In this document: one piece after another, positions 60,120-63,837 of the stretch
How the letters are laid out: every line of letters begins with the position of its first letter
Position numbering within the stretch: position 1 is the stretch's first letter
From: Brevundimonas pondensis
GTDB lineage: Bacteria > Pseudomonadota > Alphaproteobacteria > Caulobacterales > Caulobacteraceae
DNA length: 64,000 nucleotides
Direction: 5' to 3'
Assembly (NCBI RefSeq): GCF_017487345.1
Contig: NZ_CP062006.1
Span: forward strand, 1,370,001-1,434,000
Position numbers and translations under genes: made by a program
Notes under the pieces: generated by a model
Databases searched by the model: none
The model's input: only the letters and a program-made list of their open reading frames with translations
Told to the model about the DNA's origin: nothing

Positions 60120-61490
60120 ATGAGTAAGCGCTGGACCCCTGAATCCTGGAGAAACAAGCCCGTCGTCCATATGCCGACGGACTATCCTGACATGGCCGAA
60201 CTGGCCCGTGTCGAAGACGAGCTGCGGGCCATGCCGCCCCTGGTGTTTGCCGGCGAGGCCCGCAAACTGACCCAGCATCTCGCACAGGTGGAGGCGGGCA
60301 ACGCCTTCCTGCTTCAGGGCGGCGACTGCGCCGAGAGCTTCAAGGAGTTCTCGACCGACAACATCCGCGACACCTTCCGCCTGATCCTGCAGATGGCGGT
60401 GGTCCTGACCTTCGCCGGCCGCAAGCCGGTGGTGAAGGTCGGCCGCATCGCCGGTCAGTTCGCCAAGCCGCGCTCGTCGCCGCTGGAAGAGATCGGCGGG
60501 GTCGAGCTGCCGTCCTATCGCGGCGACATCATCAACGGCATGGGCTTCACCGCTGAAGAGCGCGTGCCCGATCCGCAGCGCCTGCTGAAGGCCTACAACC
60601 AGTCGGCCTCGACGCTGAACTTGCTGCGCGCCTTCGCCGGCGGCGGCTATGCCGACCTGTACAATATCCATCGCTGGACCCTGGGCTTCGCCGACAACGG
60701 CGCGGGCGCAGCCTACCGGGAGCTGGCCGACAAGATCACCGAGGCCCTGGCCTTCATGGAGGCGGTCGGCGTCACGCCCGAGACGCATCCTGACCTGTCG
60801 CGCGTCGAGGTCTTCACCAGCCACGAAGCCCTGCTGCTGAACGTCGAGAGCGCCCTGACGCGGCTGGAAGGCTCATCGGGCGAATGGTTCGACACCTCGG
60901 CCCACATGCTGTGGATCGGCGAGCGCACCCGTCAGCTAGACGGCGCGCATATCGAGTTCATGCGCGGCATCTCGAACCCCATCGGCGTGAAGTGCGGGCC
61001 CACCATGACGGCGGAGGACATCCTGCCGCTGATCGACGCCCTGAACCCGAACAATATTCCTGGGCGCCTGACCCTGATCGGCCGCTTTGGTCATGACAAG
61101 GTCGGTGATCGCCTGCCGGCGCTGATGCGGGCGGTGAAGGCCGAGGGCAAGCGCGTCATCTGGTCGATCGACCCGATGCACGGCAACACCCTCAAGGCGG
61201 CCAACGGCTACAAGACCCGGCCGTTCGACCGCGTCATGGGCGAGGTTCGCACCTTCATCGACGTGGCCGAGGCTGAGGGCGTCCACCCCGGCGGCGTCCA
61301 CCTGGAGATGACCGGCCAGAACGTCACCGAATGCCTGGGCGGCGCCCAGGCGGTGACCGAGGACGATCTGTCGAGCCGCTATCACACCCACTGCGATCCG
61401 CGCCTCAATGCCGATCAGGCGCTGGAGCTGGCCTTCCTGGTCGCTGAGCGTCTCAAGGCCGGGCGTCAGGCCCGCGCCGAGGCCGCGTGA
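60120..61490 (+). CDS. aroF: Class II 3-deoxy-7-phosphoheptulonate (DAHP) synthase
   Basis: First step of the shikimate pathway, the plant/mycobacterial-like class II enzyme. The 456-residue length is typical. Signature parts are [51 protein letters not shown]-like [12 protein letters not shown], and [20 protein letters not shown] (read in part). It lacks an obvious added regulatory domain. Its stop overlaps the GTG of the prephenate dehydratase gene by 4 nt, linking the entry of the pathway with the Phe branch. Confidence 0.96.
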
Positions 61491-62059
61491 CCACGCCGAC
61501 CGAAGACGAAGGGCCGGGCCGCGTCGCCTATCAGGGCGCGCCCGGCGCCTTCAGCCATGAAGCCTGCCTCGACCTGCGTCCGTGGGACGAGGCGGTGGGC
61601 TATGAGACCTTTCAGGGGGCGATCGAGGCCCTGTTGTCGGGCGATTGCCAGTCGGCGCTGATCCCGGTCGAGAATTCGACCATCGGCGTGGTCGAGCCTG
61701 CCGCCAGTCTGGTGCGGGAGGCGGGGCTGACGGTGGTCAGCGAAGCCTGGCGTCCGATCCGGCTGGCCCTTCTGGGCCTGCCCGAGGCGCGACTGTCGGA
61801 CATCCGGACGGCCGAGAGCCACCCGGTGGCCCTGCAGCAGTGCTCGAAAGCCCTGGGCGAAATGCGCATCGCCTCGGTCGAGGTCTTCGACACGGGCGGC
61901 GCCGCCGCCGCCGTGGCCGAAGCGGGCGACGTGACCCGCGCCGCCGTGGCGCCGGCTCGTGCAGCCGAGGTTTATGGCCTGTCGGTTCTGCGCAACGATC
62001 TGCAGGATTTCAGCGACAACCGGACGCGATTTGTCCTGTTAAGCGCCCCTCAGGGTTGA
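61487..62059 (+). CDS. pheA: Prephenate dehydratase, catalytic domain only
   Basis: Converts prephenate to phenylpyruvate. It has 190 residues. The N-terminal [14 protein letters not shown], the block [20 protein letters not shown], and the catalytic TRF motif (180-182) in [11 protein letters not shown] are present. The protein stops 8 residues after TRF. The family normally continues for about 90 residues as an ACT domain that binds Phe and gives feedback inhibition. The chain is complete, not frameshifted as far as I can see. The GTG start overlaps the DAHP synthase stop. Confidence 0.93.
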
Positions 62060-62084
62060 CTGCGCATAGTCTTTGCGCGCTTAA
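62056..62084 (+). promoter_or_regulatory. Possible promoter in front of the aromatic leader frame
   Basis: TTGACT (62056-62061) overlaps the pheA stop. Seventeen nt downstream is GCTTAA, a weak -10. A small hairpin (GCGCA ... TGCGC) sits in the spacer. If active, it would give the leader and chorismate mutase their own transcript. Confidence 0.3.
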
Positions 62085-62127
62085 GAGAGGATCGGATCGA
62101 CCCTGATCCTGAAACCGGACCGGATTC

Positions 62128-62229
62128 ATGTCCTCGCTGCGCGCACAACTGACCCTTGAAACCACCACGCGCGCGGTGGCCGGCTTTTATTTTGGCTACG
62201 GCTATTACGGCTTTCGATACGCCGGCTGA
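62128..62229 (+). CDS. Putative Phe/Tyr-rich leader peptide upstream of chorismate mutase
   Basis: A 33-codon frame, ATG at 62128 to TGA at 62227-62229. Residues 20-31 read FYFGYGYYGFRY: three Phe and five Tyr in twelve positions. Codons there include TTT three times and TAT twice, although the surrounding genes nearly always use TTC and TAC. The frame lies between pheA and the chorismate mutase gene and is followed by alternative RNA stems. This is the architecture of an amino-acid attenuation leader; the peptide itself would have no other role. The ribosome-binding site is weak (GGACCGGATTC). Confidence 0.7.
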   Translation: MSSLRAQLTLETTTRAVAGFYFGYGYYGFRYAG

Positions 62230-62295
62230 GGCGTCGGGCTTCTAACCAACCCTGACTGTCTCGCTGGCGACCGCTCCTTTCGAGCGGCCCGTGCA

Positions 62296-62354
62296 CGCGT
62301 TCCTGCCTGATGTTTCGGCGGACGCGATCTCCCCATCGAAATTCCATGCCGAAA
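62296..62354 (+). promoter_or_regulatory. Mutually exclusive RNA stems before the chorismate mutase start
   Basis: Stem E pairs CGCGT (62296-62300) plus CTGCC (62303-62307) with GGCGG (62317-62321) plus ACGCG (62322-62326). Stem F pairs TTTCGGC (62313-62319) with GCCGAAA (62348-62354), seven perfect pairs. They share 62317-62319 and cannot coexist. Stem F ends 10 nt before the ATG and would cover the ribosome-binding region. No U-run follows either stem, so translational control is more likely than termination. Confidence 0.45.
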
Positions 62355-62364
62355 GCCAAATCCC

Positions 62365-63126
62365 ATGTCGCAATCCAACATCCAGCAAGTCTGGCCCGCT
62401 GAAACCGTCGAGCTGAGCCCCGAGCAGAAGGCGCTGGCCGCCCTGCGCGCCGAGATCGACAGCCTGGATGATCAGATCCTGAACCTGTTCGAGCGCCGTC
62501 TCGCCGTCGCCGCCCAGGTCGGCAAGGCCAAGGACGCGCCGACTGGCCCCCACACCAAGCTGCGTCCCGACCGCGAACAGGCCGTTCAGGCCCGCGTCCT
62601 GAAGCAGTGCGAACCTGAAAACCGCGAGGCGGTCGAGCACCTGTGGCGCGAGATCGTCGGCTGGGGTCTGGCCCGTCAGGGCCGGCTGCAGGTCCATGTC
62701 TGGGCCCCGATCGATCCGGCCAAGGCCGTGGACGGCGCCCGCTTGCGCTTCGGCGCCGCCGCTGACATCAAGCTGGTCCGCGACCCGCAGGCCGCTCTGG
62801 CCCATGCCGCCGAAGGCCATGGCGTCTCGGTGCTGTCGATCAATACCGAGGACGCCTGGTGGATGGGTCTGCGTCGCGAATGGTCGATGCTGAGCGTCTT
62901 CGACGGCTACGGCGGTGAAACCCCGACCTCGCTGGCCGTGGGCAAGATCGATCCGCCGGCCCTGCCGACGGGGCGTCGCGTGGTGGTGACGGTCGGGGGC
63001 GACGCCGGCGACGGCTCGGGCGCGCGCCGCTGGGGCCTGAACACCAACCACGGCTGGACCCTGGCCCTGACCGACGCCGACGTGGCGCCGGGCGATGTGG
63101 AAGGCTGCGTCGGCGCCATCGGCTGA
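62365..63126 (+). CDS. Chorismate mutase domain protein with an unassigned C-terminal domain
   Basis: A 253-residue protein. Residues ~20-105 are a type II (AroQ-class) chorismate mutase helix bundle: LAALRAEIDSLDDQILNLFERRLAVAAQVGKAK (read in part), then KLRPDREQAVQARVL. Chorismate is converted to prephenate, the substrate of the PheA encoded just upstream. The remaining ~150 residues (from LQVHVWAPIDPAK) match no family I know; part of it faintly resembles a prephenate dehydratase-like lobe. It could be the sensor that PheA lacks, but that is speculation. The ATG at 62365 has a poor ribosome-binding site. Confidence 0.85.
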   Translation: MSQSNIQQVWPAETVELSPEQKALAALRAEIDSLDDQILNLFERRLAVAAQVGKAKDAPTGPHTKLRPDREQAVQARVLKQCEPENREAVEHLWREIVGWGLARQGRLQVHVWAPIDPAKAVDGARLRFGAAADIKLVRDPQAALAHAAEGHGVSVLSINTEDAWWMGLRREWSMLSVFDGYGGETPTSLAVGKIDPPALPTGRRVVVTVGGDAGDGSGARRWGLNTNHGWTLALTDADVAPGDVEGCVGAIG

Positions 63127-63195: not shown

Positions 63196-63837
63196 ATGAA
63201 CGCTTCCGTCATTCTGCGGCTCGGATCGGTCGGCGCCCTCGCGGCGCTGCTGTCCGGCTGCGGCATGGCGGAGGCCGATCCCCATCGTTTCGAGGGCGTA
63301 GCCAAGAACATCGCGGCCATTCCCCTGTCGACGAAGCCTGAAGCCAGACGTGAGCCCGCCGGGCCGCGCAACGCCGAGGAGGCGGGGCTGAGGCCTTTGA
63401 AGGTCGAGCTTCTGACGCCGCATCAGCTTTGGGACGCCCGTGACGGGCTGACCGCCAAGGCTGCCGCTGTCCTGCCAGCCGTGCCGGCGGTTTTCCATGA
63501 TCCCGAGGCCCCGGCGGACGTGCAGGCTGCGCAGCGGGCTGAGGCTCAGCCGTCGCGTCCCGCCGCAGTCGCGGTCGCTGCTGCGCCTGCCGTTCTGATC
63601 CAACTTGGAGCCTACGCCAGTCAGGCTTCGGCCCAGGCGGCCTGGGAGCGTTTGGGACAGGGGAGCCAAGGCCTGAACCCGGTGTTTGAGCCGGTCGAGG
63701 TCAACGGTCGGCGACTGGTGCGGTTGAAGGTTCGCGCCGGATCGGCTCAGGCTTCGGCGCTTTGCGCCAAGGCGGCGGCGTCCGATCCGTGGTGCGTGCG
63801 GGCCGCAGAGGCGGCGTCGTCCACAGGCGCGGCTTAA
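63196..63837 (+). CDS. SPOR-domain lipoprotein
   Basis: A 213-residue lipoprotein. The signal peptide ends with the lipobox LLSGC, and C22 would be lipidated. A Pro/Ala-rich linker follows. The C-terminal SPOR domain starts near VLIQLGAYASQASAQAAWERL (read in part) and ends about residue 200 with a cysteine pair (LCAKAAASDPWC). SPOR domains bind denuded glycan at the septum, so a role in division-site peptidoglycan is likely. It is immediately upstream of mipZ. Confidence 0.88.
   Translation: MNASVILRLGSVGALAALLSGCGMAEADPHRFEGVAKNIAAIPLSTKPEARREPAGPRNAEEAGLRPLKVELLTPHQLWDARDGLTAKAAAVLPAVPAVFHDPEAPADVQAAQRAEAQPSRPAAVAVAAAPAVLIQLGAYASQASAQAAWERLGQGSQGLNPVFEPVEVNGRRLVRLKVRAGSAQASALCAKAAASDPWCVRAAEAASSTGAA

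Follow-up and report, generated by a model that had tools for sequence, protein, structure and literature searches.

The locus described here lies at the end of a 64,000-nucleotide stretch of Brevundimonas pondensis DNA, called the window throughout. The genes at this end follow one another in the order: DAHP synthase class II (60120–61490), prephenate dehydratase (PDT, pheA), a short open reading frame referred to as the leader, chorismate mutase (CM), a SPOR-domain protein (63196–63837) and the start of another gene (table 1). The PDT gene overlaps the stop codon of the DAHP synthase gene. The leader reads MSSLRAQLTLETTTRAVAGFYFGYGYYGFRYAG to its stop codon, with FYFGYGYYGFRYAG as its C-terminal end. 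Aromatic residues make up eight of the 12 positions of FYFGYGYYGFRY, and the leader is alone among the 672 open reading frames of the window (at least 20 amino acids) in carrying more than five aromatics per 12 residues. The 36 nucleotides 5′ of its last Phe codon hold six Phe and Tyr codons; shuffles of the same bases average 1.1, and 0 of 100 reach six. A first-pass annotation of this DNA had described a Phe/Tyr-rich frame between pheA and CM, and both the frame and its position are confirmed. It had also stated that the frame is partly written with TTT and TAT codons that the neighbouring genes avoid. This holds for TTT, which serves for all three Phe codons of the leader, compared with 2/18 in aroG, 2/5 in pheA and 0/3 in CM. 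It fails for TAT in the two upstream genes (aroG 4/8, pheA 3/3) and fits only CM (0/1). The element reaches further upstream than had been supposed, to the promoter-like TTGACT at 62056. In the CM protein, approximately 150 residues C-terminal of the CM domain have no Pfam family at E 0.001; the best NCBIfam match is below cut-off and is titled just ‘hypothetical protein’.

Table 1. Features of the leader locus, in window coordinates.
Feature	Position	Strand	Remarks
Prephenate dehydratase (PDT, pheA), without C-terminal ACT domain	61487..62059	+	sole PDT match of the genome
Promoter-like site: TTGACT (62056–62061), 17-nt spacer, GCTTAAG (62079–62085)	62056..62085	+	overlaps PDT stop codon
Leader peptide ORF	62128..62229	+	33 codons, Phe/Tyr 8 of the last 14; conservation and coding tests
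A box GGCTTTCGAT	62209..62218	+	within leader (Gly-Phe-Arg codons and first Tyr base); complementary to the CM ribosome-binding region
Hairpin P1 (CGCCGG..GAGG with TCTC..CTGGCG)	62220..62269	+	holds leader stop codon; RNAalifold consensus and pair counts
Hairpin P2 (CCGCTC / GAGCGG)	62271..62287	+	3 of its 7 pairs show compensatory changes
Pre-box ATCGAAA	62335..62341	+	complementary to TTTCGAT of the A box
SD box CGAAAGCC of CM	62350..62357	+	complementary to GGCTTTCG of the A box
Chorismate mutase (CM), type II / AroQ domain	62365..63126	+	presumed controlled gene; Pfam CM_2, E 3.1e-16

Selection on the coding frame is seen in a set of 57 sequences, left when 99 distinct leaders were thinned so that no two are more than 93% alike. 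The 12 codons preceding the last Phe carry a mean of 4.8 Phe and Tyr codons in frame 0; the two remaining frames have 0.6 and 1.2, and the frame 0 count lies above 95% of a sequence's own shuffles in 57/57 cases. Phe and Tyr exchange for one another at individual positions. The number of codons from the start to the motif differs between leaders, the length ranges from 26 to 37 amino acids (n = 57), and the aromatic end is retained among leaders whose N-terminal halves vary freely. The leader is almost certainly a real, selected open reading frame. That it is instead a small functional protein, or an unselected chance frame, is scarcely credible, even though it is open and has a start codon. 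The range of lengths and the freedom of the N-terminal half argue against a small protein, as does the position before CM in the fetched loci; chance is excluded by the conservation, the frame and shuffle tests, and the comparison with the 672 open reading frames. Phe and Tyr are the products of prephenate, and Trp branches off the pathway earlier. The codon make-up of the 99 distinct leaders, 347 Phe and 384 Tyr with zero Trp, is as expected for a sensor of the prephenate products rather than of Trp, and it is very likely that the leader responds to the supply of Phe and Tyr.

The leader is conserved, and it is tied to CM. A search of named genomes with the CM protein yields 65 loci, mostly titled Brevundimonas, with the rest mainly from Caulobacterales or alphaproteobacterial MAGs. 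Together with 30 loci from a family search, the window included, these give 75 distinct upstream regions; the leader is present in 74, and the remaining locus (L092) is without upstream DNA. The exact pattern YGFRYAG-stop occurs in 64 of 299 family genomes, one match each: 61 come from the window's genus, of which 73 genomes were searched, and three from the genera labelled g9 and g10. Adding 11 variants in fetched DNA, the leader is found in 72/73 genomes of the window's genus. One genome of this genus, G092 (99% complete), has neither a CM match nor a match to the leader pattern. Genus g3 (2/2) has YYFRYAG with the stop codon further downstream, and in G010 of g10 the motif ends with TAA. 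A diverged counterpart, MRDALNLPSVSIPTTR[VL]YYGYRSSAQFSGRQG-stop, is present in genus g17 (2/2), where it separates PDT from a short additional CM gene. These g17 genomes have two CM genes (L224 of G017, L225 of G031): the aromatic leader precedes the short second one, beside PDT, and the other CM gene (two loci) has no such frame upstream. Where PDT sits elsewhere in the genome (G009 of g9, G010 of g10), the leader stays with CM, which bears out the earlier proposal of a Phe- and Tyr-bearing leader peptide belonging to CM.

Beyond these genera the frame is absent from the CM loci sampled. Seven other genera of the family (g4, g6, g12, g13, g15, g19 and g22) have it in 0/20 loci, and nine further genera in 0/11, two of them g20 loci in which the stretch was read partly inside the gene. 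Among these 11 the maximum is four aromatics per 12 residues, reached by an unrelated frame, L259, in which Trp counts for two and Tyr and Phe for one each. The expectation that Caulobacter and Phenylobacterium would share the leader is not borne out among the genera sampled, which are identified by label. The alignment of the PDT–CM gap across genomes that had been suggested does reveal a conserved short aromatic frame with synonymous conservation, within the window's genus and a few other genera. A nucleotide pattern, TTTCGAY..CCGGCGACCG, gives 23 matches in 299 genomes of the order, in the window's genus only; it is stricter than the element, misses the window itself, was applied to a sample without g3, g9, g10 and g17, and is no measure of spread.

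Transcription of the leader probably starts at a promoter of its own, judging by a conserved element at the end of the PDT gene. TTGAC occurs in the approximately 110 nt 5′ of the leader ATG in 57/57 sequences, versus 19/627 control 110-nt windows from the same loci; the TGA of TTGAC is partly constrained by its overlap with the PDT stop codon. In 16/57 sequences the distance from TTGAC to a leader ATG is 33–37 nt, which would suit a leaderless mRNA. The arrangement resembles TTGAC-N17-GCTANAWC, which we take to be the Caulobacter housekeeping promoter type. A consensus scan of 61900–62500 returned no sigma-70 promoter.

The end of the leader is frozen in its nucleotides. TTTCGA, starting at the last Phe codon, is identical in 99/99 distinct leaders, a count to be read together with the locus filter, which itself demanded TTTCGA[TC][AG]CGCCGG; among loci with a recognised CM and at least 250 nt upstream, just two failed this filter, both from leaderless genera. 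The third positions of TTT, CGA, GCC and GGC are invariant in 57/57 sequences, and the full 99 contain a single GGT. The neighbouring genes seldom use CGA (3/78 CGN codons in four genes). These alignments indicate that the leader end is under selection at the RNA level besides coding selection. The amino acids encoded here, FRYAG, are likewise nearly invariant, the Ala–Gly before the stop codon included, and could be taken for a small-molecule-sensing ribosome arrest peptide, with the aromatic run as part of the arrest sequence rather than as control codons. This is very improbable. The frozen synonymous positions are explained by RNA pairing and not by a peptide; two lineages have Arg or His in place of Tyr; in g3 the frame continues past Ala–Gly instead of stopping right after FRYAG; and the upstream aromatics differ in number and identity among leaders.

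What the frozen segment is complementary to lies before CM. GGCUUUCGAU matches two boxes there: AUCGAAA and CGAAAGCC. The first, in the form [AG]TCGAA[AT], is found in the last 60 nt 5′ of the CM start in 41/57 sequences, conserved despite being too distant from the start for a Shine–Dalgarno (SD) role. For the second, GAAAG lies within 20 nt of the CM start in 45/57, and in the window it is 9 nt 5′ of the ATG. The complementarity between the A box and the last 45 nt before the CM start beats shuffles (p < 0.05) in 51/57 sequences. Its mean score is 19.4. Shuffled sequences score 11.1, the remaining 10-mers of the leader 11.5 and stretches of CM coding sequence 12.5, and the SD sequence (GAAAG) itself accounts for part of the match. 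The six misses are L126 (marginal, p 0.08), L127, L131 (g3) and L132–L134 (deep lineages of the window's genus). The CM start of L127 was mis-picked, so its miss is an artefact that is still inside the counts of 57. The deep lineages L131–L134 keep TTTCGA in the leader and have no clear complementary box before the CM start. In L087–L089 both boxes are merged into one, AUCGAAAGCC, immediately 5′ of a GTG start. Several sequences retain pairing through G-U changes on the side of the ribosome-binding site (RBS). The A box side is invariant in all 99 leaders, so that covariation at the A box cannot demonstrate the pairing. In g17, GGCTATCGC stands opposite GCGAAAGCC, with C-G replacing A-U and one mismatch (read by eye).

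Structure prediction places leader–RBS pairing in the ensembles of 53/57 sequences. A simulated ribosome on the motif raises the mean predicted accessibility of the SD sequence from 0.33 to 0.50, a figure without shuffled control. The same simulated stall, again without shuffled control, opens the SD by more than 0.1 in 36/57 sequences and closes it by more than 0.1 in 2/57. The predicted opening in the window's own RNA is small, from 0.18 to 0.26. A ribosome simulated at the stop codon gives a mean accessibility of 0.46, almost equal to that of the stall; because this ribosome also opens the SD, the model requires that it depart promptly. The most conserved aromatic codons sit within or just 5′ of the A box, and a stalled ribosome covers approximately 12 nt downstream according to PMC4833913. 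A ribosome stalled on these codons would therefore cover the A box.

Two hairpins follow the A box. An RNAalifold consensus of 53 of the 57 sequences (L090, L007, L040 and L140 left out) contains P1, which encloses the leader stop codon, and, directly after it, P2. The cells of both hairpins are paired in 97.0% of cases, versus 94.1% in shuffles and 40–60% when slid, and 39 cells show double changes versus 15.3 in shuffles. Compensatory changes are mostly in P2, P1 having single ones at two pairs; CTGGCG in P1 of the window retains its pair as G-U. The g17 leader has no excess fold stability (z −0.52). An alternative pairing of the P1 3′ strand with the earlier leader was rejected: it reaches p < 0.05 in 3/57 sequences, and its mean is no better than that of codon shuffles.

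At the base of P1 the sequence is frozen: five of the six pairs there, and also the first two pairs of P2, are invariant in the 53 sequences, and upper P2 covaries freely; in 62220–62287 and its relatives this goes beyond what ordinary pairing explains. The junction UUUCGAUACGCCGG ... CCGGCGACCGC could accordingly be an RNA sensor or a protein-binding site, with the leader frame merely positioning ribosomes, and the g3 lineage retains the motif without an obvious RBS partner. Such a role in place of codon sensing is nevertheless quite improbable: coding, A box pairing and P1 pairing share bases here, and several ordinary constraints may suffice to freeze them. Rfam returns no family match up to E 10 in 61900–62500, and the g17 leader exists without the motif.

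Several traits of the locus are those of the trpL/pheL type: a short upstream open reading frame rich in product codons, followed by a gene (CM_2) in the synthesis of those amino acids. The pheL and pheST attenuators act through an intrinsic terminator. No intrinsic terminator was found in the window scan of 61900–62500, and TTTT within 12 nt 3′ of P1 or P2 occurs in 0/57 sequences, compared with 9/57 elsewhere between the leader stop codon and the CM start. The mechanism of pheL and trpL, premature intrinsic termination, which the first-pass annotation had in mind, is unsupported on this evidence, and the leader is not filed in the pheL class, since the terminator, a part that defines the class, was searched for and not found. 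Control of transcription could take another form, in which Rho loads before CM once the ribosome has left, or a non-canonical hairpin terminates, and stalling prevents either. The leader anatomy would be the same for such a switch. Between 76 and 146 nt of RNA 3′ of the leader stop codon are untranslated (n = 57), and the toiL leader is also accompanied by Rho-dependent termination inside the next gene in the account of PMC12121999. Control at this level is unlikely, given that the window scan showed no terminator-like site and the 57 sequences no T-tract just 3′ of either hairpin, and given that the conserved match of A box to RBS would not be expected from it.

The reading favoured here, and a fairly likely one from sequence comparison and folding models, is that a Phe/Tyr-sensing leader peptide controls the translation of CM by translational attenuation. 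That it would do so through sequestration of the RBS is put forward with a shade less assurance, as somewhat probable. The proposed steps are as follows. (i) Transcription would begin at the leader's own promoter, at the end of the PDT gene. (ii) When Phe and Tyr are plentiful, ribosomes would traverse the leader, halt at the UGA inside P1 and depart. (iii) The A box, formed by the last Phe and Arg codons, would then pair with the AUCGAAA/CGAAAGCC segment and close the CM ribosome-binding site. (iv) When charged Phe- or Tyr-tRNA is scarce, ribosomes would linger where the aromatic codons lie, within the A box and close to it. (v) Lingering ribosomes would block A box pairing, and CM would be made. 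The cell thus probably turns on CM when Phe and Tyr run short.

The PDT encoded beside the leader lacks the usual Phe-sensing ACT domain. It aligns to the catalytic part of solved PDTs only: residues 11–187 of 190 with 25–201 of 308 in PDB 6vh5, and positions 7–182 of 283 in NCBIfam NF008866. A g6 PDT aligns over 6–285, covering the part named ACT. Pfam gave no ACT name to the tail of long PDTs (six long and four short proteins compared), and the tail was judged instead by alignment to PDB 6vh5 and NF008866. No tail is found in 106/106 loci of the window's genus, which represent 87 distinct proteins, with several genomes counted twice and L094 a partial match. Nor is one found in g3 (2/2), g9 (1/1), g17 (2/2) and the two judgeable genomes of g10 (2/2); in the third, G027, PDT is cut by the contig end. 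A tail of 95–109 amino acids is present at every one of 42 loci from 16 other genera. Among 100 genomes of the order, the ten from the window's genus are the only ones whose best PDT frame is shorter than 240 amino acids; the other 90 have 278 or more, and these are lengths of frames, not genes. A second PDT with a short frame of 225 amino acids exists beside a long one in another family of the order (G325:C3:324710-325228). The PDT match crosses one in-frame TAG in two genomes (G040:C62:5406-5933 and G083:C3:117452-117979). The TAG of G040, from g10, lies within the domain, with a stop one codon past it; that of G083 may be the gene's own stop near the domain end.

Presence of the leader and loss of ACT coincide without exception among the genera in which both were judged. 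The window's genus contributes 14 of its 106 loci to a PDT tree of 63 rows, in which every locus from elsewhere except L223 (contig end) is included. The group with leader and without ACT lies on one side of a single branch of this tree (99/94), with long branches present. As one clade, this group points to one event, not several. Other feedback might be carried by the C-terminal part of CM or by a DAHP synthase–CM complex, of which one is known in Mycobacterium (PMC4281200). It is possible, and suggested tentatively, that end-product control of the Phe/Tyr branch shifted in one clade of Caulobacteraceae from allostery to codon sensing: PDT would have lost its Phe-binding ACT domain, and CM would have gained a translational switch that reads Phe and Tyr codons, to which the frozen three-way junction could add sensing of its own.

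Amino-acid-sensing leader peptides are textbook transcription attenuators. A literature search, with most subscription papers outside its reach, found no published description of this leader; in a survey of premature terminators, a search for the terms ‘Caulobacter’ and ‘chorismate’ gave no hit in the main text (PMC2965389). If the proposed mechanism is true, a leader with both Phe and Tyr codons, found genus-wide before a free-standing CM and masking its RBS, would be an uncommon design. The match of leader and ACT loss in the phylogeny would offer a clear, testable case of one type of feedback replacing another, in culturable bacteria.

Four known systems invite comparison. In the rtpLP leader of Bacillus subtilis, which precedes anti-TRAP, a ribosome at the leader stop codon blocks the SD sequence of the next gene. 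Amino acid codons in the leader govern access to a downstream SD there, as proposed here, yet the codons are those of Trp, and the SD is blocked by the ribosome itself rather than by a leader:RBS helix. The Escherichia coli pheL–pheA (mutase–dehydratase) and pheST systems, described in PMC11802643, likewise use a leader peptide and are controlled by the supply of Phe-charged tRNA. The likeness lies in a leader peptide placed before an aromatic-pathway pheA or before pheST. These systems differ in sensing Phe and in acting on transcription; the leader described here has codons for both Phe and Tyr, precedes a separate CM gene, is predicted to pair with the RBS and shows no terminator in the stretches searched. 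The aroR leader of Corynebacterium glutamicum, which bears Phe-Tyr-Phe before the DAHP synthase gene aroF, acts by transcription attenuation and responds to limitation of Phe, not of Tyr, as reported in PMC11802643. It shares a Phe/Tyr-bearing leader before a gene of the aromatic pathway, and is set apart by its level of control, its response to Phe alone and its target, DAHP synthase instead of CM. There is also a likeness in outline to toiL–topAI of E. coli: in the repressed state a hairpin forms between the leader sequence and the RBS, and a stalled ribosome prevents this pairing (PMC12121999). The toiL leader senses ribosome-targeting antibiotics, not amino acids. The likeness would be one of mechanism, namely translational attenuation in which the leader ribosome competes with a leader:RBS helix.
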